This document shows, in pieces, positions 1,888 through 62,100 of a DNA stretch of 64,000 bases (its first letter is position 1; every line of letters begins with the position of its first letter). The notes under the pieces were generated by a model that was given only the letters and a program-made list of their open reading frames with translations, made no database searches and had not been told where the DNA came from. Position numbers and translations under genes: made by a program. Source of the stretch: Clavelina lepadiformis (Eukaryota; Chordata; Ascidiacea; Aplousobranchia; Clavelinidae). The stretch is taken from assembly GCF_947623445.1 (NCBI RefSeq), contig NC_135244.1:23064860-23128859 (forward strand). Direction: 5' to 3'.

Positions 1888-4800
1888 TGGAAACACAAAC
1901 AACTTAAATCTATGAACTAAGACAATTTTAATGTAAACAACTACCTGGCAGAAGGAGTCACTTGCTCAGTAACAAATGACAATGTAGATGGCTCTTGTGA
2001 TGATGTCATACCAACAAATGATGATGTAGATGGATCTTGGGATGATGTAGATGGCTCTTGCGATGATGTGATAGCAATAGATGGTGACCTAGGTGGCATT
2101 GATAAATATGTCTCAAAAGATGCTGATGATGTACTTGGTTGATCTTTGTCGCGAACAATGGATGATAAAAATATTTTCCTCATTGGAGGTTTCAAATCAT
2201 CTGAACTTTCCTCTTCAAATCTAACTCTTCCACTGGAAGGTTGAGGCTGGGAGATGGCATCATGTTTACTGTGACCTTCACTTGAAACATGTCGTGTAGT
2301 TTTAGTGACGATAATGGAATGTTTACGGCCACGTTTCCCTGTTTGATGACTCTTCCGGTGAAAATTATCACTCTCACCCCGATGGTGTTTATTAAGAAAC
2401 TCTTTCTTCAGCTTTCGTCTCTCTCTTTTATCCATCTTGTCACTCGCTTCTTTGCGTTGATGATGATGAACTCGACGGTCTACAATCAAATCATGTCGTG
2501 AAGTATCAGCAACTTCAAAAGCAGGATTTGCACCATGCGGTTTTACTCCCTGATGACTTTTAGGACTTTTTTCGCCACGATGTTGTTTCTTGAGAAATTC
2601 TTTTACCAACTTTTGTCTTGGTTTATGATCCATCTCATCACTTGCCTCTTTGCGTTGATGATGATTTACTCGACGCTCTTCACTCAAAACATGTCGTGAA
2701 GTATCAGCAACTTCAATGGCAGGGGCTTCACCATGATGTTTCACTTTAGAGATGATTTTGCTCTCACCACGATAATCTTTCTCGGGAGATTCTTTATTCA
2801 GCTTTCGTCTCACTTTTTGATCCAGCTCGTTGTTTGTTTCTTTGCGTTGATGATGATGCACTTGATGCTTTTCACTCAAAAGACGCTGTGAAGTATGAGC
2901 AACTGTGTTGGCAGGAGTTTCACCATGCGGCTTTACTCCCCAATGACTTTTGTTCTCATCATGATGGTCTTCATGGAGGAGAAGTTCTATCATCCACTTT
3001 AGCCTCTCTTTTTGATCCAGCCCATCATTCATTTCTTTGTTTTGATGATGAATTACCTGATGCTTTCCACTCAAAACACGCTGTGAAGTATGAGCAACTG
3101 TGTTGGCAGGAGTTTCACCATGCGGCTTTACACCCCGATGACTTTTGTTCTCATCATGATGGTCTTCATGGAGGAGAAGTTCTATCATCCACTTTAGCCT
3201 CTCTTTTTGATCCAGCCCATCATTCGTTTCTTTGTTTTGATGATGAATTACTTGATGCTTTTCACTCAAAACACGCTGTGAAGTATGAGCAACTGTGTTG
3301 ACAGGATTTTCACCATGCAGCTTTACACACCGATGACTTTTCCTCTCGCCACGATGATCTTTCTTGGGAGATTCTCTCTTCAGATTTCTTCTCTCTTTTT
3401 TATCCATCTTGTCATTCGCTTCTTTGCGTTGATGATGATGAACCTGACGGTCTTCAATCAAATCATGTCGTGAAGTTTCAGCAACTTCAAAAGCAGGATT
3501 TTCACCATGCGGTTTTACTCCCTGATGACTTTTATGACTTTTTTCGCCACGATGTTGTTTCTTGAGAAATTCTTTTACCAGCTTTTGTCTTGGTTTATGA
3601 TCCATCTCATCACTTGCCTCTTTGCGTTGATGATGATTTACTCGACGCTCTTCACTCAAAACATGTCGTGAAGTATCAGCAACTTCAATGACAGGGGCTT
3701 CACCATGATGTTTCACTTTAGAAAGGATTTTGCTCTCACCACGATGATCTTTCTCGGGAGATTCTTTATTCAGCTTTCGTCTCACTTTTTGATCCATCTC
3801 ATTGTTTGATTCTTTGCGTTGATGATGATGTACTTGATGCTTTTCGCTCAAAACTTGTTGTGAAGTCCCAGAAACTTCAATGACAGGGTTTTCACCATGC
3901 GGTTTTACTCCCCGATAACTTTTGCTCTCACCACGATGTTGTTTTTGGAGGAGTTCTTTCACCCACTTTAGTCTCTCCTTGTGGTGGATTTTGCTCTCGC
4001 CATGATGCTGTTTCTTGGGAGATTCTTTATTCAGTTTTCGTCTTTCTTTTTGATCCAGCTCGTTGTTTGATTCTTTGCGTCGGTGATGATGTACTCGATG
4101 CTCTTCATTCAAAACTTGTTGTGAAGTCCCAGCTACTTCAAAGGCACGGCTTTTATCATAAGGTTTCACTCTATGGTGGATTTTGCTCTCGTTATGATGC
4201 TCTGTCTTGGGAGATTCTTTCTTCAGTTTTCGTCTTTCATTTTGATTCATCTTGCCAGTTGCTTCTTTGCGTTGATGATGATGAACTCGACGGTCTTCAC
4301 TCATAACATGTTGCGAAGTCTCAGCAACTTCAACGAAACTAGTTTCTCGATTAGGTTTTACTCTGAGACGAGTTTTATTCTCAACTGGAAGTTGTTGATG
4401 AAAAAGTTCCAATTTCAGATTTTCCTCTTTGCTTCCATCTGCTACACTTGGATGATGTGAGACCGGATTTTGTTCATTATTTACATTACTTTCTTCGTCA
4501 TCGATACTTTTTGAGTCAGTTAGCAATGATTTATGCGGCCGTTGCGATCGGCGAAACATTGTTGTTATGAGAAACGTTGCTGGAGATGACAACAGAGCAC
4601 TCTCGATTCCTTTGTTACAAATCAAAAGAATACGACGATTAATTTAATAAATAACAATCTCAACCATGTCTGTCAAAACCGATGTCAACTGAACTCACCG
4701 ACAGCCACGTGCCACCACTGAAAAGTGTAATTACCGACGGCTAAGAGCAGTCCCTGCTGCGCGTGGTTGTTCCCGTGGAACATCAACGCGGTCAGCATGA

Positions 4801-7800
4801 TCATCAAGGTTATCATGAGACAACACGATAACATTTCTATCCTGCCCATCACGTGACGTTGCCACGGGCGCATTCCATAGAATGCGTACCAAAGATATCT
4901 GCAGTATTGTGGAATTATATGTTAATAATCCGGTACAATTGTGAGATATAAATTATCTCAAACTTTACCTGTCTCTGAGGTGATTTTCCAACCTCAAGGG
5001 GAACAATGTCCTGGTGTTGTGCAGGTCTTTGGTGCGTGCAGCAGGGACCACGTGGTCTATGACATGCTTGAACCAGCGGTTGCAGAGGAAGAACCAGCAA
5101 TGATTTTTCTCCAGGTCTCTTACCACAACCCTCTGGAGGAACCTAACGTAAAAGTTACATTTAATAATTCCTACACTTCCTGTTGAGTTGTTGCTACTTC
5201 ATACCACTCTGGGCTGTGTCCGCCATTATCGTGCCACAAGCGAATCGCAGTGATGTCTCCAAGACACTCTGACGTGGTGATAAGGAACGATTTCACACTT
5301 CCCCTGTTCAAAATCTTTGTGTGGTGCTGTAAAAAAGCATTCATTATCAGTTTATGACTTAATCAAATGCATTTCAATACATTATGACGTCACAATACCT
5401 GAATGACATGAGCACTACTGGTGGCCATATTTCCAACGAGTCGGAGGCAGACTATAGCAGAAGTTCCAGAATTTCGTCGACTTCCGGTAAAAATCGTCAC
5501 GATGTAACGATATTTATCGAAAGGACTATTGTCCGGGACTTCCACACACAGATCCTTGAAAATAATTGCTTTTTAATTTTGATTGATCACTTTCACATAT
5601 GACAGTAGCACTCCATCACAGTTACACAACAATAGACACGATGTTTAAAGAATCTCAAGCATGTCTTCATATTCAAGCGGATATTCAAATATTTTCACCT
5701 CAGCCTCCACTTGCCGGTCTTTTGATCTCGCCCAGATTAGTCCGAGTCCATACAAGGAATAGAGCACAAATAACATGGAGAAGACAATCGGATTTTCTAA
5801 GAAGCGCTGCCACATGTTGGAGGAGATCTGAACATGATTTCATCATTTGAAAGTGATACCTTCTGTTACATCATAAACATTCTTACCTCATTGTAGTCGA
5901 GTTTGTTGGGGAAAACCAACAATTTCGACGCGAGCAGCGATGGCGCCCTTGTAAAATCATCCGTGCTTCTTTTATGACCCTGGGTCCAGACCACCCTTGT
6001 AACAGGGTAGTGACCACATTGGCACATTACCGAGCCGGAAACCGTGTCCTCATGAGCCTGGTAAAGACATAAGATGATGTTAGCTGCTCATATCACAGAA
6101 TAATCCACAAAGCATTCAATTAAATAAAAATGCTAAATTCATATAAATTTTCACTTTTCTGCCTTCAATATCTCACCTTGCAGAGGCTGTCTTTCCAGCC
6201 ATTGTTGGCATCAAACCAGTGAAGACACTGCAAGGCCCAAACAGAGAACACGGCCGATGTAATGGTTCCGGCACGGTAGTAGCCTGGACCCAGGTCAGCA
6301 CGAATGGTAACATTGTAGGATCCAAATCCTACAAAGGGCGCCTTTGTCGTCCATCGATAATGTGTTGCTGAAATATAATGACAATATTTTGAGAACCAAA
6401 GACTCTGACAATTAAATCTACTCCACAGTTACCTTTCTACAGAACAAAAGTGAAAAACAGTATGATGTTACACTCACTGCAACTCATGCACAGTAATTCA
6501 CTGCAAATTCTCACAGACGCTCATACCAACCTTCCTTGTCAAACTCCTTTCTAGCCATGGTTATTACTTGGCCTACAAGGGTCAGGAACATTTTAAGCTT
6601 TTTAACTCTGCCTTCATAGTTTCCCACAACAATGTTTAGCATCGTTGCTTCCATCGCACCACTCGAATCTCCCTCAACATCTATGAAGGCAGAGCCAATG
6701 GCAGTGCTATGGCATGCTGAGCCGTCACATTCACTTTTAACCCTCAGCCATATCTTGCTCTTATCGGGCTGTTGAGGCAGGCTGAACTCTAACTTTAGAT
6801 TCTTTGCTATTTCTTTACTGATGGGGAGCTCGTCCCTCCAACCTGTCGTTATGCAGACTGACGTCACAGAATCAACTTTTAGATCAAATGGACTGAAGTT
6901 GGCTGAGGTTGAGTTATAGCGAAAAATCTAAATTTTTACAAAACATTCTTCTGAATATCATCGCAATATAATGTAAGTGATTAAACAAAGCACAATTATT
7001 ACCTCGACATTGATGACATCATCAGTTATATGCGACTGCAAGTTAGAAAGTTGTACGAACGAGGTGTTAGCATCGAAAGGATCTGAAAATATTTCATTGT
7101 GGTCATAAACAAAGTATTGAAACCTATATGAAGAGTTACACCTCACACATGAGAATGTTGCTACCACTGTGCACTGTATGTGTGTGAACAACATGTGTGC
7201 ATCAGATGTACGTGACTTATAAATTGAAACACTTCTTCCTTACTCGTGACATGACTGTTCAACTTGAACATTCTTCCTTCAACAGATTCAGTTTCAAAGG
7301 ATATCGCCTCCTCACCAGGAGTCAATGATGCCATGAGCAACTTTCCCAGACGATTCATTCTCAAATTTTCTTCATTCTTCGATAAAAGTCGTTGTTAGTT
7401 GAATAATCAGATGCTACATTATTGAACAGGTTAACTTGGTTACCTTGAAAGGATAAAATCGAACAAGTCTCATCAATTGTGATGTTGTAGTCATACATGA
7501 CCTCACAATGGAGTTTACATCTTCATATCGACTGGCAGAAAATGGAACAAAGCTCTCTACTCGATCCAGGATATCCTGCACATCTTGCTGTAATACAAAG
7601 TAACTTTCTTCTACTCAGTCTATATTACGGATAAATATGTGGACTCTAAATGCAAGTTTGTGTAATTTCAAACTTTACCAATTGAGTTTCTTCAAGGAGT
7701 TTAGGATTGTTTGTTACATGGCCTATTACATCGGCAACTTGTTTCACCGGCTCCAACGACAACATGGGATATTCCGCCATTTTGGAAACTATTTCCTTTC

Positions 7801-10800
7801 TCTGTTTCAGCAAAAATTTGTCTTTCAAATATAAAACTTTGACAGAAAATATAAAGTTAATACGTCACAAACTGACCTTTGATTGGTTGAGTTTGTTGGT
7901 TGACGATAAGACGAGAACAAACTGAGCAATCTTCTGCAGATTGTTACTTAACAATGCTGCATCCAGTTCATTTATTACATCATCGTTAACGTCATAATTA
8001 TCAACCACAGTGACGGAGAGATTTTCCTCAACACAAGATTGGTCGGGAGTGCATATTTCTATGACAATCGTGACGTCATTAGATGAACGTCCAGGTGGAA
8101 GTATGATGTCATAGAGAACTGGATCAAATCCATATTGTAGAAGATATCGATGGCCTGGGAAGGATATTTATTTTTTAGAAGGATTTATGACTTTGTCGGA
8201 ATTAATTCTGCTCTATTTCCACCTGACACTTTATTCACCTTTCTCTTGGAGGAAAAACTTGTACATCAGTTGGTATTTGCCTTCTATGTAACCAGCACAT
8301 GTGACATTAAACTTGGTGGTATACGCACTTCCCATGCTAGGTAAAACAATGCAGCTACCACCACCATGAGAAGATAGAGTATTGAGGAAAATGGTCACTG
8401 AGGAGTTCTCTCCGTGAATATTGTAACCTGCACATGGAGGTCAGGTTTAAATTTGTGACTGAATTAGCACAATATAAAGGGGATTCACCTGTTCCTGTGA
8501 CATTTGATGATGGAATAAGTAACGAAGCACTTAGTTTGCAAAACTCCTGATCATCACACAATGGCAGTTGATGTCCAGGATTTGGCGACAATGTCCATTT
8601 ACGACGTAAACAATCATCGCACTCTAATTGTAGAATGATTGACAGGTGAGGAGAAAAGTACTTCCCACAGTTGGACCAACATCTGTGATTGATGGAAAGA
8701 AAATTAAATGAAATGTTTTTAGTTAGTTTGGGCAATTTTATCCAATGCTCACTTCAAATCAACAATCGGGGCTCGTCTTGGTTGAACAACAACTTTCTGA
8801 TCTGCCAAAGTTGCATCGTAATGGGGTCCAGATATGATTAATCGAATGTAATAATGTTCACTTTGTCTGAGTTCATTCATGGATATTTCCATCACATGAC
8901 CACTGGTCACCCAGAGAGTGTGCCAATCAAAGCAGGAATCTTAAACATGAGAAAAACAATTAAATCTTGAACAAAATGAGATTTGAAAAAAACTTTGAAA
9001 CCTTTTCTCTGTATTTTCCCCATCACTATCCTTGTTGGAAGCTCTTCTTGCTTGATGGAGCAAAACCAGTTGTAGCCGATGTGTCGATGATATTTGTTGT
9101 AATCAATTGAAGATTCAAATCTTAGGACTGTCATGTTGTTGTCTATGCAGAGAAATCATAAGATATTAAAAATATGGTCCGATGTGGTCAACAATTAAAA
9201 TTTAATTCATGAAAATATTTTATGAAGCCACATAGAAATCTGATAATAGCCCACTCACCAGTCTGAAGCACATTTCCTCCTAAGATCACAAAATGTAGCT
9301 TTTTCTTGGTAATTTCAATCAAAGTATAATCTTTGAGCTTTCCCTCCAACACATCACTTGTCACATTCTCACTGGTAACTTTAACCTTTACCACATACAA
9401 GCCGGGTGACAATGAATCGGCTCTGATGATAAGTTCTGGTTCAAATGACTCCTTCTCATATTCAACTTCATACGTATATGTTGCCATGTCCATGTCTGTT
9501 GCCACTGGGAACACCAACCATTTATATCTGACCTCAGACATATTCTTGCACGTGAATTTAAAATCCACGCTGAAGGTCAAATAATCAAAGACTTTCAATG
9601 GTTTTTCAAACCCTCCTTGATAGTTCCCATCTCGAATTCTCAGATTCTCCAAGCACGATGACGTCTCCAACACGTCAACCCATCCCACGAAAGGAAATGA
9701 TTGTTTTGAATTCCTGATAAAACCAGTGACCTGCTGCATTCCAATGTGGTATAAAACTCGTTCAACTTTGATCAATTTGTAAAATTTGGCATCAAATGGG
9801 AGACTGGGCAGATCTTTGTGATCATATTCCAACTTGGAAATGGTGAAACTGTGGTTCTCTGGTCTTCCTTGTAAGTATATCGTCATCATGTAATCACCAA
9901 TGTCACCTCTGACAAATGCATACACGTAATTTCTGCTGTAGCTAGGGATTGGCTTCAGTGACGAAATATACACGTTGTATATCTGTGGTAATGTTTCTAT
10001 GAGTGCCCATGACGATGATTGAGAGACCTTGTTTTTAACTGTTGCTTCAATTTTGTATATTCCTGGTTGTGATAAATTTGTCTTGATCACCATTGAGTGA
10101 CAATCTTGAGGGCAGAATAGAGAACCATTGAAGTGTGACAAGTTGCTTTCGATCGATTTGATTTGGATTGAAAGACTTATTGGGGCTCCTTGACTCACCG
10201 TCGCATTTATTATGAAATAATGGGGATGAAAACCAACGTATTCTTTTACTGCAATATAAAAACCTTTGATTTCTTCGTTCAAAATAACTGGTGTGGTATA
10301 TATCATAAAAGAGACATTGTTTTGTAACAATAACATGGCATCATGTATTCCTGGTCCAATTAATAGTTGCTTGGTTGAGTTTACTTTAAAACTGACTTCT
10401 TCAAACACCTTCAACATAAATTTTGCCTCATCCAGAACCTGCTTTGTCTGTTGTTGTGCTATAATGACATCACCCAACAATAGGGAGTATGAAATAGGAA
10501 AACAATATCGGTGACGGAATACAAGTTCAACCGGGTTCAAGAATGTCTTGTCCATATCTTTGTGGGATATTTCTAATGTTGAAGGTGACAAGCCACATTC
10601 CACGTAAAGATTAACGTGTTCTGTTCTAAAAACAGCATTCTCCCTTAGAATGTCACATCTTGCATATATTAAATAGTTTCCAGGGTATTGATATATATGT
10701 TGTGCTGTAAAGGTTGATGTTGAAAGATTCGTCTCCGTTTGAGTGGAAGCTCGATTATGCTTCAGCAAACAACCAAGATATCCCTTCAAGCTGTCCCCAC

Positions 10801-11601
10801 CACGTAGTACTGAAACAAATTGAACAACCTCCCCAGGCTGTACATAATGGCTGTTCATTGTAAGATGAAAGTCTGTAAAGTATGACAAATAAATGGTTTC
10901 GAAAGTACGATGGCATTACATATGTCAATTATTGACTAAAAATCTCACTATCATCAGTTCAGAGTTTTCATTTGTATGATTTGTGAAAAAACATGTTGTG
11001 CTTACTCACCAAATCGAAAATAATTAAAGGACATCTTAGCTAAACTGCAGTTCTTGGCATATCTTTGAATAAAAACAAAAACTGTTTCTTTGAAAAGGTA
11101 GTTTCCAGGATTACCAGGTCCACAAATTCTGGCCTCTGGCTTACTTGTTTTAAGAATCAGTAATCCACCAGAGCAACTACATGAACACAAAAACTATAGT
11201 TACTAAATCAACAAAAGACAGCAATTTCACTGCTAAACAGAATTAGAGTAGGCTATTTCATAACAATCAGAATTAAGAGATTCAGATTTCATTGTTCAGG
11301 TTTTCACAGAAGTGTGTCTAAGTAAAGCATAGGCCTACCAAAATTCTCAAGTTTCTCTGCTTTTGTTCAATTGTTATCATTTACCAAAGCAAGATTAAAA
11401 CATAACGCAAAAACATTTATTAAACATAACAATTGCTACATCATAATTATTTCCTGATAAACGATTTCCCAAACCGCAAATATACAAATTCTCCCTCCCT
11501 CAGTGGAATTTCCCACTCCCTAGTACCAGGCAACACAGTGCTGTTATCACATTCCTCTGTGACTGTTCCACTTGCATTTCTAAGAACCATACTGAAGCCT
11601 G
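1..11601 (-). CDS. Polycystin-1-like receptor, s-Themis-like (3' partial)
   Basis: Large transmembrane receptor of the polycystin-1/receptor-for-egg-jelly family. Exons seen, 5' to 3': 11601-11477 (tentative), 11176-11010, 10872-9259 (PKD-like folds and start of REJ), about 9139-9001, 8941-8752, 8683-8490, 8430-8240 and 8160-7880 (rest of REJ), about 7830-6520 in several exons (GAIN), 6367-6177 and 6057-5887 (GPS), about 5820-5700 (TM1), 5513-5400, 5325-5182 and 5144-4970 (PLAT), about 4895-4693 (TM2), 4609-1945 (TM3 and giant loop), 1887-1680 (TM4), 1601-1435, 1400-1225, about 1019-771, 734-583, 498-318, 258-121 and 55-1 (TOP domain and next membrane segment). The intron 317-259 is only 59 bp. 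The fibrinogen gene beginning at 11646 on the other strand lies between these exons and an exon 1 I could not find. This head-to-head pair is the organisation reported for Ciona s-Themis/v-Themis; the name is an inference from that synteny, while the polycystin assignment itself is firm. The pore lies beyond the left edge. Confidence 0.85.
1945..4609 (-). repeat. Giant exon: TM3 plus His-rich tandem-repeat cytoplasmic loop
   Basis: One 2665-bp exon (after AAAG, before AG|GTAGTT). It opens with the conserved TM3 segment (GIESALL...P...LITTMFRR), then runs about 850 residues to the exon coding TM4. The loop holds about ten copies of a 64-66 residue unit with the core H-H-H-Q-R-K-E, a V-K-P-H-G-E start and an E-R-R-K-L-x-K-E charged helix. 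Three consecutive units in the first half closely match three in the second half, so there is a higher-order duplication of five units. Unit 2 carries an extra 20-residue insert. After the repeats come an R-V-R-F motif and a short S-S-Q-E-P-S-T repeat. Polycystin topology places this loop in the cytoplasm. The frame has no stop over 888 codons, which argues for selection. Several apparent reading frames on the other strand are shadows of these repeats. Confidence 0.85.
5887..6367 (-). other. GAIN/GPS exons with non-consensus cleavage site
   Basis: Two exons, 6367-6177 and 6057-5887, code the GPS. The first ends with C-L-H-W-F-D and G-W-K-D-S-L-C-K, the second contains V-M-C-Q-C-G-H-Y-P. The spacing of the four cysteines and two tryptophans fits the GPS. 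The normal autoproteolysis triad His-Leu-Ser/Thr is instead His-Tyr-Pro. From knowledge of the family I infer that self-cleavage is unlikely. The following segment ends F-P-N-K-L-D, the usual polycystin lead-in to the first membrane helix. Confidence 0.8.
9259..10872 (-). other. Receptor ectodomain exon: PKD-like folds and REJ start
   Basis: A 1.6-kb exon of about 537 codons, open throughout. The first two thirds carry repeated beta-sandwich patterns typical of PKD repeats (for example PGIYKIEATVKNKVS). The last third begins the REJ module, with a conserved cysteine, an R-Y-K-W segment and an L-x-P-G-L-Y turn. The exon starts after TTTACAG and ends at CTG|GTGAGT. In the Themis family the N-terminal ectodomain carries the polymorphic recognition region, so this exon and the two before it are where allele differences would be expected. 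Many N-x-S/T sites are present, as expected of a secreted or surface domain. Confidence 0.8.
11477..11601 (-). CDS. Tentative upstream receptor exon
   Basis: After an acceptor TTTTCAG the minus strand reads G-F-S-M-V-L-R-N-A-S-G-T-V-T-E-E-C and then E-I-P-L-R-E-G-E-F-V-Y-L-R. If the weak donor CG|GTTTGG at 11477/11476 is used, the phase matches the next receptor exon at 11176. If not, the frame runs on to a TAA at about 11452, followed by AATAAA near 11420, and this would be a short terminal exon of something else. I favour the receptor reading because of its position between the fibrinogen gene and the receptor exons. Confidence 0.4.
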
Positions 11602-11645: not shown

Positions 11646-13784
11646 ATGATAATCAGAAAAAAGTTATCACTTAAAATGTTATATCTAAAAAAAACATTGT
11701 TAGAGCAAAGTTGGTTTTATTATTACTTTCTATTGTTGCCTTTTTATTTACGGCATTGCCAAGCAACTGACAGTAAACCTGGCAACTTATTAATGCGAGT
11801 TACCAAGAGTCTAAAAAACGCACATTTAACTACAAAAATCTTTCAACAACTGCAAAACTATCAAAATCAACAAGTAGCAGCCAAAGAATTTGTTGAATTT
11901 ACAACAAGCCTGACTAATTTTGGTGGTTCACAGGCTAGATTAGACAAAGGTAAGGAACAAGTAAGCTTTATGAGTATTTTTGCATTGCATTGAAAATCAA
12001 ACTATCTATTTCTTCAGATTGTACAAGCATCTACGCAAGTGGTTCAAGAACAAGTGGTATCTACCCGATATGGCTCAAGGAACGATTCCAGTTCACCTAC
12101 GTCTACTGTGATATGGAGCTCGTTTCAACTAAGAAGGGCTGGACAACAATACAAAGAAGAATGAACGGGGAGATCAACTTTGAAAGGGGATGGGATGATT
12201 ATGTCAGAGGGTTTGGAAACCCTAGCAGTGAACACTGGTTTGGATTGGAAAATATTTATCGTTTGTCAAGACAAACTGCTTATTCAACCAACAACTTAGG
12301 AACGATCTACATAAAAACACCAGAAGTGGGTTTTGATCTTGAAGATTGGGATGGTGTGAAAGGATTTCTTCAATATAAGGTACCTGTACCGAATAAGGCC
12401 CGGTCCCTAATAAGGCCCATTGCTCATATTTCGCAAACCCGTGCAAATAAATGAAAGATTTTGTCCCTACATAAAAACTAATATAAATTCATGATGGTTT
12501 ACCAGATTTCATCCTTGTCACGTGATCAACCGATTCGCTAGAGCACAACAAAAATTTGATATTTGCAGTTAAGGTGGTTTTGTTAATTTAGAAAAAAAGT
12601 AAGTGAGAATTTGGCCGATTAAATGAACTGTTGTCAGCCGGCTGAAGTTTTCATGTAACAACCAACTTAGTATTGAAAAGGATAATGCACTTTTTTTTGC
12701 TAAAATTTTTCTGATGATAAAAATGTTACATTTTTTTCGTGGATTCCACATGCGCCTAATAAGGCCCATACAAGATGCTTGGCTAATTTATGTCCAGACT
12801 TCAAGAGTGGTTCCAGTCATCAGTTGGCAAATTGTTGCAGTTACTTTGATGCGCCTAGTGGAATCTTTTTAAATGTTTGTACAACTTAAAATGTGAAATT
12901 TCTAATAAAGTTATATGTTGTCTATTACTATGTTTTGAATCAAAATACTCACAAAATTGGTGGGCCTTATTAGGAGCCTATGCTCCTAATAAGGCCCATT
13001 TTTTGGAATTTTTAATTTCTTTATAAAAATTTTTTGGTGGGTAGTCAGGTATTGTGGTTTTAATATGTTGTAGTCATATACCCTCACTAATAGAATACGA
13101 TTTTTCAGTCTATTCTTATTTATGGTTCTTGAGTTATTTTCAAAAAAGTGTTAGGTGGGCCTTATTCGGTACAGGTACCTTAGTCATTTTCAGCTCGAAT
13201 CAAAAAAAATAAAATACTGGTTAGATATAAACAGTTTGAGTGGGATTTTTAATGATAGTTACACCAAAGCCCCAATAACTAGCAGTTACTTCAGTACACC
13301 AGATGAAGACAATGACAACGATGACGAACAACATTGTGCCAGTAACTACAAGTCAGGTTGGTGGTTTTACGACTGTTTAGAAACACACTTAAATGGTCCA
13401 TATCCGAAGTACAAGCAAAAAATGAGAAGAAATACTATTTTTTGGGGAGGTTGGCATGAATTTAATGATAAAAATACCGCTTTGCGCTTTGTATCTATGA
13501 AGTTGCACCATGGCATGGCTAAGCCGTAAGCATGTGTATATTAAATTACTGCAATGTGTGTTTTTTGAAATTTAAAAATTTTGTCTATATTTATGAAATA
13601 GGTTTGATAACATATTTTTTTGTGTTTTAGTAAAGAAGCACACAACCAAATGACATCACAATTTGGTTCGCAAAGTTCTAGCACACAAATACATCACGCG
13701 GCTGTGCATTTCTGTACTAGACAACTTTTTGCCTTGCAAAATAGTACTTTAATTATTGATAGGGGTAATAAGTTCGTTGTATAG
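11646..13784 (+). CDS. Fibrinogen-related protein, v-Themis-like
   Basis: Secreted or membrane-anchored fibrinogen-domain protein. Exon 1, 11646-11949, has a hydrophobic leader (W-F-Y-Y-Y-F-L-L-L-P-F) after a basic start and a short helical stalk; an in-frame start 30 bases downstream is an alternative. Exon 2, 12018-12379, begins the fibrinogen domain (D-C-T-S-I-Y, Y-C-D-M-E, W-T-T-I-Q-R-R). Exon 3, 13194-13525, holds the calcium loop (D-E-D-N-D), C-A-S-N-Y, W-W-F-Y-D-C and L-N-G. A further 50-codon exon 13631-13784 joins in frame through AAGCC|GTAAGC; otherwise the protein ends at 13529. The gap between exons 2 and 3 is a transposon (12378-13180). The gene lies head to head with the polycystin-like receptor, as v-Themis does with s-Themis in Ciona, where it is the egg-coat ligand. 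If the insertion is not spliced, reading stops at 12454 and the calcium-binding half is lost. Confidence 0.8.
12378..13180. mobile_element. Mariner/Tc1-style MITE inside the fibrinogen exon
   Basis: An 803-bp element with perfect 24-bp terminal inverted repeats beginning AGGTACCTGTACCG and ending in AATAAGGCCC. It is flanked by TA on both sides (12376-12377 and 13181-13182), the target duplication of Tc1/mariner-type elements. The motif TAATAAGGCCCA recurs inside near both ends, in both orientations. No transposase frame is present, so it is non-autonomous. Removing the element with one TA restores an unbroken fibrinogen reading frame, showing that it landed in coding sequence. Confidence 0.85.
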
Positions 13785-15380
13785 GCTATGACTGTAATTA
13801 AATATTGTTTTTGTTATAGTGCTAAAAGTGGTGATATGTGGCAAATATAAGACACTATTTAACAGAAGTGGTTCATCTATAAGCGCCCTCCGTTTTTAAG
13901 TATGATCTTGAGAGTGATGCTCTTTTTTCAATGTAGAAATGGAACCATTAGCATGCAACTTTTTAAAGGGTATTCGCTCGCTGCATTTTTTTGCACAAAC
14001 AGTACTATGAATGCACAAAATGGATACAAATGATCAATTTAAAAATAATTTATTTCAACTGCTCTAAGACTATAATTTTATGTAGCGAATGAAAAATGAC
14101 TGACTTTGAAATTTATTTCCCGCAAAATTTTCACTCTTTAAAGATAATTTAAAAAAATAAACAATAGGCTACAATACACAATAATAAGCACGTCAGAACC
14201 ATGTCATGGCGGTTCAATATAATCGCTTTGTTTTTTAAGCTGGCAACAATGAGCCGAGTTGTCATCCTGGTGTTGTAATTTGTTTCACGTTGCCGTTACT
14301 TTTATAACATAACCAATAAAAGTTGTCGGTTGGCATCAGGCCACTATAAACAATTGCGTGACTAATTATAACATCAAAGAAATGTGGTCTTTAGCTACAC
14401 ACAGAGCGCGACAGCAGTTCGAAGAAGTACCTAAACTGGAAGGACCTACTTGGAAAGCTGAAAGACTTCTATTCTTGTCTATTATTTCTTGGAATATCAA
14501 TGCATTCGTTCTGGTGGTACCGCTATTAAACAAAACTTGTTTTATTGTTAGAGTTTTCTGGTGTCCAATACAGGCCTGACCCTGTGTTACCTGGGAAGGA
14601 CATGCCTTTTTAACTTCAGAATTGGAGCCAGGTTGTTGTATAATCAAGCTGCGACTAACGTTAGCTTAGTGTTAGTGTGCAGAAAGCATACTGATTAACC
14701 AGAAACCCCACATATGCTTTGAAAGTATAAAATATTAAAATGTTGAACATTGGCATCTACAATCGTAGAAGCTTCTTAATACTCTAGCCTACTCGTCTAT
14801 TAATCATTTGTGGCAGCTGTCTTCAAAAGAAAACTCTTAAACATAGGATTTCAAAAAATTTTCTATAACGTTTACATCAAATAATGATAAGAATTTACAG
14901 TTGCAGTTGGACAGACGTTTTACAATGTAAACTTGCACCATATCAATGCAATTGGTGTTCAAAATGGCGCCGGAATAAAACCATTTCTAATTGCTTAAAA
15001 GAGGGTGAACAGCAAAACAAGCGCCCTTTTCTTCATGGAAGAGCGTGTGACAATTACGTCATGAGTCATGGGTTGGTTTGTAAATGCTAAAATTTTATTT
15101 TGGGATCTTGCGATTTAATTGCTGACCAAGCTTAAATTCTCCTTAATGACGTTTAGATAAATTACCTCGCTTTAACTGGTGTGCCATATAAATACTATTG
15201 TAATGCTTGTAATCTCTCCTTTTCTTTCTATCACTTGTTACGACTGCGCAATGCAACAGAAGTAAGCTTTGCCCAAAGGCGTAGGCCTTTGTAACTGACA
15301 ATAAATAAAAATGGGAACTTTATCATTTACTAATATGTATAGACAGAATTATGCAAATAACAGCATAGTCAGCATGCCGT
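13785..15380. other. Stretch without recognised gene
   Basis: AT-rich. Possible poly(A) signal for the fibrinogen gene near 14156. A short open stretch at 14358-14579 resembles nothing I can name. The missing first exon of the receptor may lie here or further right on the minus strand, but no convincing signal-peptide exon with a donor was seen. Confidence 0.4.
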
Positions 15381-18300
15381 TTGAGGAATGGGAACTCATA
15401 CCATCGAAGCAGAAACAAAACAAGTTATCAACCATCAATCATCCTCGCTCATATTCTAAGAATAGCCGCCAGTGAATCCGGTCTTTATGACAAATGTGTT
15501 TGTTGTGTAATACTTCACAAAAGTAACAAGGCCAGAACTGTTGCATGCAAATTGAGTTTGACAACCTTGACAAGTTTGAGTTTGACGACAAAAATAATAC
15601 AGATTATCAACGTATATGCCCCAAACGTTCAAGTAAGACACTACCTGAAAAATAATGAATTTTTTCATAAGCTTTATAGTTACGCCAACCCCAACGTCCC
15701 TTTAATAATAGGGGGCGATTTCAACATCGTGGACGATCCAGAGCGAGATCGTTTCCCTCCCCACAAAAAGCGAAGTAGTAGAACGAAAATAGAACTTCAA
15801 AACTTCACCGAAGCCTTTGATCTCAACGATCACTATGATCCCCCCCAACACGGCGATGTAGGTTTTACTTGGCAAAGCGGTTCATCAAAATCTAGAATTG
15901 ATCGCTTTTATGTTTCTCAACAAATAAAAGTTAACGGACTCCAAACGATGGAAAGTCCCCATTCTAACCACAAAATGTTACTGGCAAATTGCGTTTCTTT
16001 CACCCTAGGGAAAAGAGGCCGCGGAGTTTGGAAAAATAATGTAAACGTGTTTCAAAATGTAAAATTTCGCAAAGAACTTGAAGAAAGATGGCCCCACTGG
16101 CGCACCTTATATCCCTCACTCATTCCAAACTTATCCGCATGGTGGGTGGAAATTAAAAACAGGATTAAAGACCTGATAATCAAAATCACAGGAGAAATCG
16201 CGCAAGAAAATAGGGAAGAAGAAACTCGCCTCGAAAACGATTATAAATTGGTTTGTGAACGATTACCCCAAGCAAAATGTAATTACGACGATTACCTAGC
16301 CGCCAAAAAATCACTGGCTGAATTCCAACGCAAAGATGCTGATAAGAAATTGCATAAAAATTTGCAAAGAAACTTGGATACACCAACCAAGAAATTTTTT
16401 CAAAGATTCATGCAAGATAGGAAGTCAACCCGAATAACCGAGGTCATCGACTCGGGAGGCGTAAAGCACATTTCGTCCCCATCGATTTTAAAAGAAACCC
16501 GTAAATTTTACAATAATCTATACTCGAAAGAAGTAACGTCTGAGGAGAGACAACGCTCTTTTTTGAAACATTTAAACGCTCATTTATCGCCCTCCGAAAG
16601 AGAGACGTTAAACGCTGAACTTAGCGATCAAGAAATATTCACCGCAGTAACACAAATGAAAAAAGGCAAAACACCTGGCCCAGATGGTCTCAGCATTGAG
16701 TTTTACGTCCAATGTTGGGACATCATAGGAGGTGGCTTCTTCGAAGTAATCAAAACGTGGTTCAGGGACGCAAGTACGACTAAGGAAAACAAAGAAGGTG
16801 TTATAACCTTAATCCATAAGAAAGGACCTACGAATGACCTTACCAATTACCGCCCAATATCGCTGTTAAACTGCGATCTAAAACTTTACACGAAAATATT
16901 AACTAACCGTTTAAAAGGCAAACTAAACAGTATTACGCACCAGAACCAATTTGCAAAACCCCACAAATCGATTCACGACGCCATCATCAAGATTCGCGAT
17001 CTGTATGAAAAAAGTAGAAATGAAAACCAAAACCATTTGTTCATACCGATTGACTTCTTAAAAGCCTTCGATTCAATCAACCACGCATGGCTTTTTAAGG
17101 TGCTTGAACGAATGCATTTTCCTTCTCGCTTCCTACTTGCCGTTAAAAATTTGTATTCTGACGCGAAATCCAGGATAATCAACAACGGTTTTTTATCTAA
17201 ACCCTTTGATTTACCAATAGGGGTCAGACAAGGAGACCCGCTAAGTTTATATCTCTTCATATTGGCAGTGGAACCGCTAATATGCGCAATTAATAGCTCG
17301 GTCGAAATAGACGGTTTGGGTCCCACCCCAGAGTACTGTACGAAATGCGTCGCGTATGCAGACGACACCACCTTCACCCTCAAAGATGCGTACTCCGCCG
17401 AAAAGACGTTTAACCTACTGGATGATTTCAGCGAAGCCTCTGGCCTAAAAATCAATATCTCAAAAACCAAAGGCATTACCCCAGAAATCAAACCAAATAC
17501 CACGACGCAACTGCCACCAATACAGTGGACAAACTCTCACCTCCAACTATTAGGAACAACAATACGAAATTACGACCCTACCATAAGTTGGTCACGGCCG
17601 TTAGAAAACCTGAAAAAAGAAGCGACCCGCCTTAATAAAGTACATTCCACCTTTGATGCCAAGTGCATATTGGTTCGAAGTAAATTACTCCCTTTAATTT
17701 CATACAACGCCTTCAGCCAGCCCATAACGACCAAGACAGCCGAGACCATAAACAGGACAATTGAAAGGTACATTTTGACGAGTAATAATACGTTCGCAGA
17801 CATCGAAGTTCTACAAAGACCCAGAAATTACGGCGTTTATGACATACTCAATATTCCCGTGTATGCGCATTTGTTTTATTTAAAACCTTTGACCCCATTT
17901 TGCAGGGACAAAATAGAAAACAAGGTTCTGTCGTTGGAAAACCGCACAATAGAAAACCAAATCGGTCACCAACTGTCCAACCTCCTCGGCGTCCAGATTG
18001 ATAACTGTACACCGCATGTCACCTCCCCATCGATTTATTATGAGCATATGCTCGAAATAATCAGGAAGCACCGTATCTCACTGAAAGAGATCTTAAGCGG
18101 AAAGGTTAAAAAAATATACCAGCGTATCATACGCGAATGTGCCCCGCAGTTTTATTTGACTCCACCAGAGCGGTCGACATGGCCCAGAGTACACAACGCA
18201 ATTCTCTCCAACGCCCAAAAAGCTTTCAACTACAGAGTAATATGGAATGATTTACCTACTCGAGGTGATATGACCAACTTTGTTCCCTACACGGAAACAG

Positions 18301-18659
18301 CATGTCGTTTTTGCGCCAACGGCCCCAACTCAGTGTTGTACACGATGGTAAAATGTAAAAAAATAAGCACTATTTGGGAATGTGCTTCCGGCGTTGCGCA
18401 AATTTTAACTGGTAGTGACGACATTAACTTCGAACCAACCACAATAACCAACTTCGATGGAATAGGTGGCCCAGATTTCGAGTCCGAAGACATGTTAACC
18501 TATTGGCTAACAGTGGTAAAACAAAAAATTTGGAAACATAGGAACGCGATTTTGTTTGAAAACCAAACTTTTAACCCTGACGAAATTATCCGGTCTAAGT
18601 TATTAAGAGGACCGTGTATGCTAGACGCACATGGGACCGGCGAAATGAAGGCCCTATAA
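15381..18659 (+). mobile_element. LINE (L1/Tx1-like) ORF2: endonuclease-reverse transcriptase
   Basis: Open frame of 1092 codons. Residues about 65-205 are the C-terminal part of an AP endonuclease domain (G-G-D-F-N near 110, S-R-I-D-R-F near 170, S-N-H near 195). Residues about 420-720 are a reverse transcriptase: G-K-T-P-G-P-D-G, R-P-I-S-L-L-N, P-I-D-F-L-K-A-F-D, G-V-R-Q-G-D-P-L-S and the catalytic Y-A-D-D near 660. A cysteine cluster (C-R-F-C) near the end fits the usual C-terminal zinc knuckle, but its histidine is not evident. The endonuclease start is missing, so the copy is 5' truncated. The last endonuclease motif is S-N-H where S-D-H is expected. No poly(A) tail or clear target duplication was seen. 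If the receptor's first exon lies further right, this LINE sits in its intron. Confidence 0.9.
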
Positions 18660-56100: not shown

Positions 56101-59100
56101 AGTATTTTGTTGATATTGTTAGTAAATTCACTTTAATTGATGTTGACTTTATGCAATGATTTTTATCATACAGGATACAAACATTGCTCGGGAACGTCCA
56201 TCTGCTGTAAATTACAATCAACAAATTTTATTGATGGGTGGTTATGAATGTGGCTCCTTTAACGCCCTTAACTCTGCTGAGATGTTAGACTTGAATGATG
56301 AGAATCCAAAGTGGGATAGCAACTTGCCTTCTATGGGAGAAAAGCGATATGGATTTGCATCAGCTTTATTGGATGGTAAGTTATTATGATGTCATAATAA
56401 TGCAAGAGCAAAATTAATGCATACTCTTTGTATTATAAACCTTCCTTTGTGGGTCATAATGACGCATAAACATAATTATTAATGTGATGACAATACAAGT
56501 TGTCATGACCTTGGAGCTCAGATATAAAATCAACAGTAACTAAGGCTTTATTAAAACAGAATTGCTAGTCCTAAATTAAACATAATTAGTTACGTAAAAC
56601 GTGACTGTAAACTATATAACACTTATATAGAAAAACTCTTAGCATTAAGCAGCCGACCCGCCCACACTACGCTTACTACTGAATAACGTCGTACAGATGA
56701 AACCCAACTCAAGAACCAATTAAGGCGGCGTGATTATGCGCGAGGCAGAAAAGGAAGACAAAGGAATGTCACCACATTCTCCCCCGGTTAAATAATTATT
56801 AACTAATAATAACAATAAGTAATTTCAATGTCGAAAATTATAAACTCCTGTCGCCATATCTTTGTGGAGGTCTTCTCTCTCTCGTGGGGTTTGTGAATCA
56901 GCCTCTCCTGAAAACGTTTGCTGCTGTCCATCTTTTTGAATGTCAGTCTCTTTTTTGCGCATTGTCACTAGTGCCTGTAGACAAAGGTAATTCTGGTTGA
57001 CATAATGGGGAAGTGACGTCCGACGTTGCGGCTTGCTCAATTTCATCGTTAGCTGGGTTTACTTGTGGGTAAGGTGCAAGGTCGGAAGTTGATACCGCAC
57101 TCTGCCTTCCATTTGGATATTTAACTAGATCGAAAGTGGAGTTCCCCATCATTATTTCAATAGGATCGCAGACTGGATCGCCTTTGCTTCGCACAAATCG
57201 ACGTAGCAATACGGTTCCTTTATTTACTAACCACGTAGGCATTGAGCTTCTCAAAGTTGCCCGTCTTGGAAAATAAAACATTCTTTCATGTGGAGTTTCG
57301 TTAGTGGCCGTACAAACAACGACCTAATTCCGTGTAGGGCTTGAGTGAAAACACGTTCCCAATGTTCTTCTGAGATTTTTATAGGAGGATAAAAGCAGTT
57401 TTATGGTTCTCCAAATTGTTTGATTGGTTTTTTCGCATTGCGAGTTCCCTTGCGGATGATACGGAGTAGAATAACTCGTCGCAATTCCTCGAGCCATGAA
57501 GAAATCTTTAAGTTTCCGACTCATGAAGCTTGATCCTCGAGCACTATGTATCTATGCCGGAAAACCAAACAAGCAAAAATGGTCGACAATCGAAAAAGGT
57601 GTCTGAAAACATCTTCTTGCAAGGATAAACAAAAGGATAACGACTAAATTCATCAAGAATTACTAATAGATAAGGTTTCGTAGGCTTACCATACGTCCCG
57701 TTTTAGCCAGGACAGTCCCGTTTTTTAAGGCTTTGTCCCGGCGTCCCGGTCAGTCAACCAAAAGTTCCGCTTTGGCATTTAGTCAGCCAGCATTGCCCCA
57801 CACTAAACGAATATTAGCACATTGTGATAGGTCTGTTTAGCCAACACTACACGAATATTAGCATGCTGCGATTGGTTTGTTTAGCCAACTTGCTGAAGAG
57901 CAATGCTCGATGCGTGTTATTGTTTTGTTGTGTTAAATGTGAAAGTAATTGTAACGTCATTTAGCGGGTAATTGGTCCAGTAGTGAGTTGATTGTTGACG
58001 CATTCGCTGGTTCAGTAATAGTAGGCTAGAAGGAGGAAGTGATCTTTTTGCGGTTAGGTTATTCAAAGAGCCTATTTCGTACCGGTACTTGTTTGCATTT
58101 CCTTCTGCAAAAACCATTTGAATGTGAAAGCCCTTATCACCTGCAAAATTAACACTGAATTTTCCTGCTGTGATTTTTATGAGAAAATAAAGTCGAATAA
58201 AGACTTCATGAAGAAAGTATTGTCTACAGAAAAGTATGATTGGACGATTATGTAAATTTACAAATGCTTGAACATTGTTTTGTTTCCTAGTAAAATGCAT
58301 TATTTTAGTTTTTCTTGGTGTCTTACTACTTTAGTTGTCCCTGACGATAGCAATCCAAAATAGTTTCATACTCCTAGTAAAATATGAACCACATTTATCT
58401 GAGGCTCGTTGTTCTGAAGCGTCCCGGTTTTCAATCACAAAAATATGGTATGCCTAAGGGAATCATGAAGCGATAACAAGTCTTTTAGGCAATCCACCGT
58501 GACACAAACTCTTGAGACGTCGTCGGGGACAACATTTTCCTTTCCTGACCTGTGGCGAATTTCATAGTGGAAAAGAATCAGTTCTAGACGCCAAATCAGT
58601 ATTTTGTAGTTTTTGAATTTTCCTTTGTTGGTTTTACTGAACATAAAGGAAACCGATCTTTGGTCCTTTATTAATGTGAAAGTTCTCCCTTTAAGGTAGT
58701 GGTCCCATTTACGGACCGCTTCTATGATAGCAGTAGCTTCCTTCACAGTAGAAGGATAATGTCATTCACATTTACTGAGTGTCCGAGACATGAACGCCAT
58801 TGGACGCCCTCCTTGTGACAAAGTGGCTGCAACAGCGTAGTCGGACGCATCGCATTCAACCTCGAACGGCAGATCTTCACAGATACTACTGAGACTAGCT
58901 TTAACAATTTCTTCTTTTAGCTCTGCAAAAGCATTTGACGTCTTAGCGTTAAAAGGGAACTCGGTGGCTTTAAAGAGGGGGCCAGCTTTTCCGAAAAATT
59001 CTCGATCCATTTGGAGTAGTATGCAAACATGCCACAAATTGGTCATGTTCTTCAATCGTCGCACCAGTAACTTTTAAGTCGTCCAATTTAGCAAATACCT

Positions 59101-62100
59101 TTTTTTAGGTTATGGCGTCCAATGAAATCATCAATCACTCTTTGAAAAGCGGCTACAACGTTTGTAACACCAAAGGGAAGTTTTTTGTATTGATAGAGGC
59201 TTCAAAGCCCAAAGCTTCAAACGCGGAGAATGTTCCTCTGCTCGAATCGGTAGCTGGTGGTGGGCCGACCGTAGATCGCGTGAGCTATAGTATTTATCCT
59301 TTCCAACTCTGTTGACAATGTCCTCGATGCGTGGAAGCGAGTAAGCATCGAGCAAAGTGAAGCGATTGACAGTTTGCGAGTAGTCAACCACTAAACGACA
59401 TTTTTCTCGGGTTCGCACCACTAGTAATTGAGCTTTCCACGGCGATTTCGACGGCTCAATGATGTCATCGGAAGGTAATCTGTTAACTTCGGTTTTCATG
59501 AAGGCAGAGTCTTCGCTCGAGTAGGAACGAGTGCGAGAAGCGACAGGGTAGTAGTCCTTTTGCATAAATTCGAACAAGTTGGGTGGGTCAACATCGGCTG
59601 CCCGCTACCGCGAAAACCTTTTCCGAAGCAGCAGACATAACAAGGGGATTTTCAGCTCCACCAAAGTCGAAAGTAACCGCATCATGTCTTTTTAGAAGCT
59701 TCTGCCCCAAGATAATATCGGGAAGAGAGTTATGCATTACGTTTAGAGTAGCTCCGGCCATGCAGTTGAATGGTTATTTTAGCAAGACCTTGTGTTTCTA
59801 ACTGCAGTTTAGTGGAAGCCATGGTTGTATGACACACACTTTTCCTTCCGGTTTTAACTTGATCTTTTTGGCTAAAAAGCTATCGATAAAATTTTCGGAA
59901 GCGCCGGAGTAAAACAAGGCTTTAATGGGTCGGGCTTTAATGACAGCGTTTACGACTGTTTAATTGACGACGACACGGCTGGAGGCAGCCGGGAGTCCCC
60001 GCAAGAATAATGGTCCCAGATGATTTAGCGGCGATGTCAAAAAACCGTTCTGAAAATCCACTTGATTCCTCACAACAGGCCGGAGAAAAAGTTTTTAGGA
60101 AAGAGCGATTACTGCGGCAGACATTTGAAAAATGGCCTCTTTTTCCACAATTGTGACATTCTCGATCACGGGCGGGACAGTGATTACGACTATGAAGCAC
60201 ACCGCCACAGTAGAAGCAAGTCTTCTGAGTCTTCAAATTACGCACCTTCGGAGCGACAGCTAATGATCCTCCAGTTTGTAGTGTACTTTCTCTAGGTGTC
60301 ACAGTGAGCAACGTTGATTGGGCCGAAGCCACCAGGCGAGGGACGCTCCTACCAGCGCCCAATGAGCTCGATTGCAATTGAGCTTGCTCTAAGTTTTTGG
60401 CTAAATCGGCCGCACGTTGTAGGTCGACATTATCTATATCTATCTCCAACAGGCGTTGACGTATGAGCGAAGAACTCACCCCATTAATGAAAGAGTCCCG
60501 TGTAAGTTCGTCGCGGTGCTTACTCGCTGTGACTGCTTCAAAAGTACAATCCTTAGCGAGTACCTACCAATCCAGCGTGAACATCGCAAATCGACACACA
60601 TCTTTTCCGGTGTTTCTTACTTGGTAATTTCAAATGTTTTCAAGCCCCCCCCCCCCCACCATAACCTTGCACGTAACATAAAATACATTGTAGTGTCACA
60701 ATGAAATTTATATAGTAAATTTAACTTGGAAACAAAATTCTAACGAACGAAAATGCGCCCAAAACCTTAAAGAAAAGATTAAATTTCTTTTCCAAACAAA
60801 GACACGTTTAGCCTAGATTTAAAAATGCAATCACTGCGTTAGTGGTTTAGCGGGTAGATAAATTCTATTATTAAAACAATGTGGTCGTAGAAGCAATAAA
60901 ACTGAAGTCCTCCCCATTTCCTTCATTGCTCCGTTGCATTGAATTTCTTTCCGAAGTTTAAATCTCTCCGTTGATGCAGGTAGACATAACATCACAAACC
61001 TAACCTCTCTCAAGTACATACAGTATATACAGAAAACCTTCTATAAACAGAGTTAAGGTGATTCGTGTTTCCTAATATGTAAGTTAATTAATTGTTAGAA
61101 TTTTTGATAATCAAATTTAATAATTGATTACTGGATTGTTTAGTTACCAAAGATATGGTGATCGGTTGGTTATTCAATTTTAAGGTTAAGTATCTTTATG
61201 TTTGACACAGCTGCTAATAAAAAGTTATGTTGGTCACACCGTCAAAGTAATAATAGTAATGTAATTTAACACTAGTCCACCAAGACTGTGAAAAATTAAA
61301 TAAAACAAGTTATTTAAGTCTTACTCGATTATTTGGTAGGCGTATAGTTGTCCCAAGTGACAAAAAAACGGTTACACATAAAAACTTTATTTTTTCTAAT
61401 GGTCTCGCAGTCGTCTTGGGATCTGTGATCTGTGATCACGGATCCCTGATAGACTGCGATCAACTGGTTGGGCACTCCTGCTGCAGAGGTTATAATTCAA
61501 ACAATTTAAATGCGCTTCCTAAAGTCGCTCTCCTTTAGCCACGATTCACCCGAAATCTGAGTTCCTAATTTTAGTTCTGTAATTACCGGTGTGCATTTTT
61601 AAATGAAAGTGACTATTTCCCCATAAGTAGATCACACAGCCCGTTGTTTAAGATAGGCAATTAGGTTAGGACATTGCTTCTCAATACCTGGATTGCGATC
61701 TCAAGCAATTTGGCTATATCACCATGTAAGATTTGTAAGTCGTGTTTCATGGGTTAGAATTATTACAGCTTTTAGCGTAACACACGTTACGTAAAACTTT
61801 ATCATCATATCACATTAATTTTGGTGTTCTGAAGTTTAATTATTACGTAACAATAGGATGTGTCACACGCAGTAATCGTTGGACACTTGCCAATTAAAAA
61901 CCTAAGTAATTTGTGGAAAACACAACAAAAGAATAATAGCACAGTAGTAGAACAGAATAAGTGGGCTTATAGGTGTGTAGATGAGTATAGGTTTATAGCT
62001 GTATTTCTAGGACAAATTTCCAGACTTGCGTTTATTCATTCGAAGCACTGTAGTATGTAAGAATTGTGCACGGTAGAAATAGGTGCGGCGTATAAGCCCA

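Follow-up and report, generated by a model that had tools for sequence, protein, structure and literature searches.

The window, a 64,000-nucleotide stretch of contig C5 (NC_135244.1) in the 209 Mb Clavelina lepadiformis genome that was searched, carries two adjoining genes that run in opposite directions (Table 1). The plus-strand gene has two exons, the second extending from 12018 to 13529, and encodes a leader followed by a fibrinogen C-terminal domain, whose profile matches are angiopoietin and ficolin structures. The start codon and frame of exon 1 are also present in the paralog L009, and the leaders are alike in six other paralogs inspected. The stop codon at 13527-13529 falls at the place where the paralogs stop. 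The minus-strand gene is polycystin-like, with REJ and PLAT domains; its first exon was not located. An open frame of 900 codons with degenerate H/K/E-rich repeats (1941-4643, minus strand) is apparently its C-terminal tail. For Ciona, PMC7018956 describes three s/v-Themis pairs, in which v-Themis is fibrinogen-like and adjoins, in the opposite direction, a polycystin-1-like gene that carries REJ and LH2/PLAT domains. The arrangement in Clavelina resembles the one in that account, with a fibrinogen-like gene placed against, and opposite to, a polycystin-1-like REJ and LH2/PLAT gene. It differs from the three Ciona pairs described there in that the Clavelina genome has about 30 v-Themis-like exons, and in that the egg-coat location and role are putative here. 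We refer to the gene as v-Themis-like: it appears to be of the egg-coat fibrinogen-like type that partners polycystin-like s-Themis sperm proteins, and its role is putative. A literature search returned no paper on Clavelina Themis or its expansion.

Table 1 Coordinates of the features at the v-Themis-like locus, in positions of the window.
Feature	Position	Strand	Remarks
s-Themis-like exon, start of PLAT/LH2 domain	5399..5554	-	PLAT 2.6e-20, three exons joined by eye
s-Themis-like exon	9191..10915	-	REJ 8.3e-7; weaker PKD 6.4e-6
Exon 1, v-Themis-like gene	11676..11949	+	ATG, hydrophobic leader, 91 codons, phase 1 end; open frame
Intron, v-Themis-like gene	11950..12017	+	GT...AG, read directly; splice sites conserved in paralogs inspected
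Fibrinogen C-terminal-domain exon, 5' part including left TA	12018..12377	+	Pfam Fibrinogen_C 7.7e-25
Target site duplication TA	left 12376..12377, right 13181..13182	.	
Proposed donor AAG/GTACCT	12377..12385	+	constant of the family's ends
Non-coding DNA transposon (MITE)	12378..13180	+	803 bp; 34% G+C; longest stop-free stretch 81 codons, six frames
Left terminal inverted repeat, 24 bp	12378..12401	+	
Right terminal inverted repeat, 24 bp	13157..13180	-	
Fibrinogen-domain exon, 3' part	13183..13529	+	Pfam Fibrinogen_C 3.5e-17
Proposed acceptor TTTTCAG, exonic	13187..13193	+	codes part of HFQ in the empty allele

The fibrinogen-domain exon is interrupted by an 803-bp element. Direct reading confirmed the description in the first-pass annotation, in which the element has perfect inverted ends of 24 bp, is flanked by a duplicated TA and splits a fibrinogen codon; the inverted repeats are exact and extend to 26 bp when the flanking TA is counted. 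As was also claimed there, deletion of the element together with one TA restores the open frame ...GFLQYSHFQLESKK... We assign the element to a young, non-autonomous family of TA-target MITEs. When the genome was searched for the element's end plus TA with at most two mismatches, 188 + 158 = 346 matches were found, well beyond chance, compared to 0 + 0 for the reversed control, and 97 left ends (58 + 39) are exact. We fetched 65 distinct copies, 57 of which have kept both ends; L040, L059, L068, L069, L077, L086, L092 and L099 had no good right end within the scan and were dropped. The family statistics are those of the 57 copies, a sample that takes in all but 40 of the 97 places with an exact left end. 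The flanks are TA/TA in 54 copies and TA/TT in 3. Divergence from the majority sequence is 1.05% on average (median 0.87%), which implies a young, non-autonomous DNA transposon. The window copy deviates from the majority at 8 bases, 4 of which are altered in no other of the 57 copies. The family resembles TA-target MITEs of the Tc1/mariner type in being short and non-coding, with terminal inverted repeats, a TA duplication and many near-identical copies; its placement in that superfamily, made from the TA alone, is a guess. No paper on the 803-bp element was found in the literature search. The probability that the insertion is a joining error, an artefact of assembly or haplotype, is close to nil: the searched assembly carries one haplotype only, but the exact TA duplication, the intact ends and the family-typical length of 803 bp are marks of a true insertion.

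No autonomous partner or transposase source was found among the copies read. The sole longer copy, L099 (2.1 kb), was rejected as an autonomous parent, as it is a family copy carrying a nested insert. In L099 (C3:15191400-15193728) the insert that splits the family copy is 1.3 kb long, and the sequences at the junction overlap by 9 bp. The insert contains an open frame that gave no match above cut-off in a Pfam search but appears to resemble MULE-type transposases.

A protein search of the genome yielded 29 further full-length, stop-free exons of the v-Themis-like family (L009-L037), and matches at 36% identity or less begin only after them. These exons are clustered on five chromosomes (C2, C3, C4, C5 and C9), and 9 of the 29 loci have an s-Themis-like frame no more than 1.5 kb away on the other strand. 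All 29 are uninterrupted at the insertion site. An old intron at this position is thereby rejected for the paralogs, and the ancient intron in relatives that the first-pass annotation had named as counter-evidence is excluded among them. The nearest paralog, L009, which lies on the same contig at a distance of 283 kb, has an empty site. It is 95.5% identical to the window over 3,710 aligned positions with the element left out, and the two agree at every base of codons 117-147, which surround the site. Since the site is empty in this near-copy, the insertion occurred after the duplication. The pair has a dN of 0.028 and a dS of 0.161, which implies that both copies were constrained at the protein level before the insertion. 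Counted by hand, the changes on the two branches are similar, 6 non-synonymous and 6 synonymous on the window branch and 6 and 8, respectively, on the L009 branch, with 7 codons not polarised. Judged by these sequence comparisons the insertion in the v-Themis-like exon is recent, and it may be polymorphic in the species. The expansion to about 30 v-Themis-like members may be a more interesting finding than the insertion itself.

A young TA-duplicating MITE has inserted into the final coding exon of one of these roughly 30 v-Themis-like genes, and we consider it quite probable that this copy is now broken. If the element is retained, the frame reaches a stop at 12452-12454, 145 codons from 12017, and the broken allele ending at 12454, which was listed only as an alternative in the first-pass annotation, is the better-supported reading. 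Transcripts would retain the element or be mis-spliced at various sites within it. The main product would end at 12454 and consist of half a fibrinogen domain plus 25 element-coded residues, making the copy null or nearly so. As no coding exon follows the one with this stop, exon-junction-dependent decay would probably spare the mRNA. Both exon halves are still open in the window copy, but this is also expected of a broken copy because the insertion is so young, and with so little divergence a test for decay of the two halves with age would have next to no power.

A different outcome was proposed in the first-pass annotation, in which the element has apparently become an intron. According to that proposal, intron gain is in progress through use of AAG/GTACCT at the element end and TTTTCAG/CTC in the exon, leaving a v-Themis in which K stands where SHFQ was. 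We regard this as unlikely, although the arithmetic of the proposal is correct: a splice from 12379 to 13194 stays in frame and exchanges SHFQ for a K, giving 232 codons compared to 235. The acceptor is moreover the sole in-frame AG within the first 90 exonic bases past the element. Published introners (PMC9860276) can borrow one site from a neighboring exon and add or remove codons. However, the acceptor TTTTCAG is ordinary coding sequence that predates the element and is identical in the empty paralog L009. Judged by this comparison, the splice sites are used, if at all, without adaptation.

We scored the sites with small matrices for which 15 donors and 15 acceptors were chosen by eye on the s-Themis strand, plus the v-Themis sites, after one non-matching acceptor had been dropped; the ranks are rough for this reason. 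Among the sites in exon and element, the proposed donor ranks 17th of 93 GT sites with either small matrix, and the proposed acceptor ranks 9th or 19th of 84 AG sites depending on the matrix. Better-scoring decoys lie inside the element, for example the donor at 12599 and the acceptor at 12797. In a leave-one-out comparison 4 of the 15 native donors and 5 of the 15 native acceptors score below the proposed sites, which fall in the lower third and are thus usable but poor. Their scores nevertheless fall inside the native range, and the native donors of the gene pair, as picked by eye, are tolerant at +4 to +6. Enumeration of frame-keeping, stop-free donor/acceptor pairs gave 132, with the proposed pair in 8th place; those that rank higher would cost the protein 21 to 93 residues. 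The 30 exons contain 1270 TA sites, and when insertion was simulated at each of them, 187 had an exonic AG within 15 bases that was in frame and stop-free, and at 41 of the 1270 the acceptor score is at least equal to that of the proposed one. The splice geometry is therefore what chance provides at roughly 3-15% of TA sites, a fairly common coincidence.

The predicted protein also speaks against the splice. The SHFQ stretch shows zero length change in all 29 paralogs and aligns gap-free to human-type angiopoietin-2 (1z3u), and for these reasons its shortening by three residues would probably harm the fold. In an AlphaFold model of L009 (alignment A1, 22 of the 29 paralogs), to which we give no weight as its mean pLDDT of 42.6 is too poor, residues 115-126 including SHFQ lie in a strand. 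With low-scoring, non-adapted sites, a shortened stretch of otherwise invariant length and a geometry expected by chance, the claim that the element became an intron is not supported. What survives of the original interpretation is a recent cut-and-paste-type DNA element inserted at a TA in a coding exon of a fertilization-type gene. The furthest-reaching version of the proposal, that a spliceosomal intron is seen at birth in a chordate self-recognition gene, with a 5' site borne by the terminal inverted repeat and a borrowed exonic CAG, and that the v-Themis ligand is altered by four residues and possibly in recognition specificity too, we find distinctly unlikely.

Splicing could also be leaky or mixed, so that a minority of transcripts lose the element through several site pairs and the allele is hypomorphic. 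Exonic insertions of Tc1 and of maize Ds/dSpm are partly removed by splicing, as shown with RNA. The Clavelina insertion, likewise exonic, resembles them in that cryptic sites occur within the ends of the element and close to them, but differs in that splicing was demonstrated at the RNA level in those systems while the present case is known from its sequence alone. On paper, the 132 frame-keeping, stop-free pairs and the better-scoring sites within the element would allow such an outcome. Most of these pairs, however, would strip a conserved domain of 20 to 90 residues, and we judge a hypomorphic allele of this kind to be quite improbable.

Introners are reportedly the subject of Huff et al. 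2016. As defined by Gozashti et al. 2022 (PMC9860276), an introner family comprises at least four similar introns, and few such families are known in animals according to the same paper. The Clavelina family is similar to the introners described there in that a DNA transposon lies in a coding exon with a GT at its end and an AG that can be borrowed from the exon. It differs from them in that there is no shared acceptor geometry, in that its own ends give a 10-base frameshift, and in that all that we know of it comes from genomic sequence. That the family is an introner, i.e. a transposon selected for being spliced out wherever it inserts, is in our view extremely improbable. As the ends are identical inverted repeats, the donor AAG/GTACCT is present at every insertion, and every copy brings TAAG/GTACCT in both orientations. 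In addition, the exonic copy L058 has a well-scoring in-frame acceptor (score 7.8) 77 bases into the exon, but its use would cost 25 residues net. When flanks are joined, 2, perhaps 3, of the 57 copies interrupt a long open frame; the raw open-frame lengths in joined 300-base flanks are 199 codons for the window, 200 for L058, 144 for L075 and 114 for the next copy. In-frame acceptors are located at +11 in the window, at +29, +44 and +77 in L058, and at +32, with a low score, as the first one in L075. The three exonic copies compared thus have no common geometry, and no splice pattern is consistent relative to the element ends or the duplication. Use of the acceptor at the right end of the element itself always leaves 10 extra bases and therefore shifts the frame; in the window, a splice between the two ends of the element (12379 to 13175) would lead to a stop after 123 codons. 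From these sequences the family does not appear to act like an intron by design. Rescue of one individual copy is possible, since the introners in PMC9860276 include some that borrow exonic sites or change codons. We found no tunicate introner paper on this element in the literature search.

L058 (C3:22685930-22689129) is an exonic insertion in an LRR gene (LRR_8 3.5e-29, sub-threshold TIR 0.0087), apparently a Toll-like-receptor-like gene split in what looks like a membrane-spanning segment. L075 (C5:21525035-21528235), located in an open frame of 256 codons for which Pfam gave no match, may be a third insertion of the exonic kind.

Exonic transposon insertions are ordinary. The v-Themis-like case is clean and datable, with an undisturbed near-copy on the same chromosome, and it concerns a type of gene that decides between self and non-self at fertilization in a relative. 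If the element is partly spliced, the locus offers a natural test of how donors borne by terminal inverted repeats seed animal introns; if the copy is null, it represents gene loss within a greatly expanded Themis family. The window holds further traces of mobile elements. Downstream of the v-Themis-like gene, at 15369-18656 on the plus strand, lies a LINE-like open frame of 1096 codons with endonuclease and reverse transcriptase domains, and open frames at 56943-60563 on the minus strand, read by eye, are like pieces of a Gypsy-type retrotransposon.
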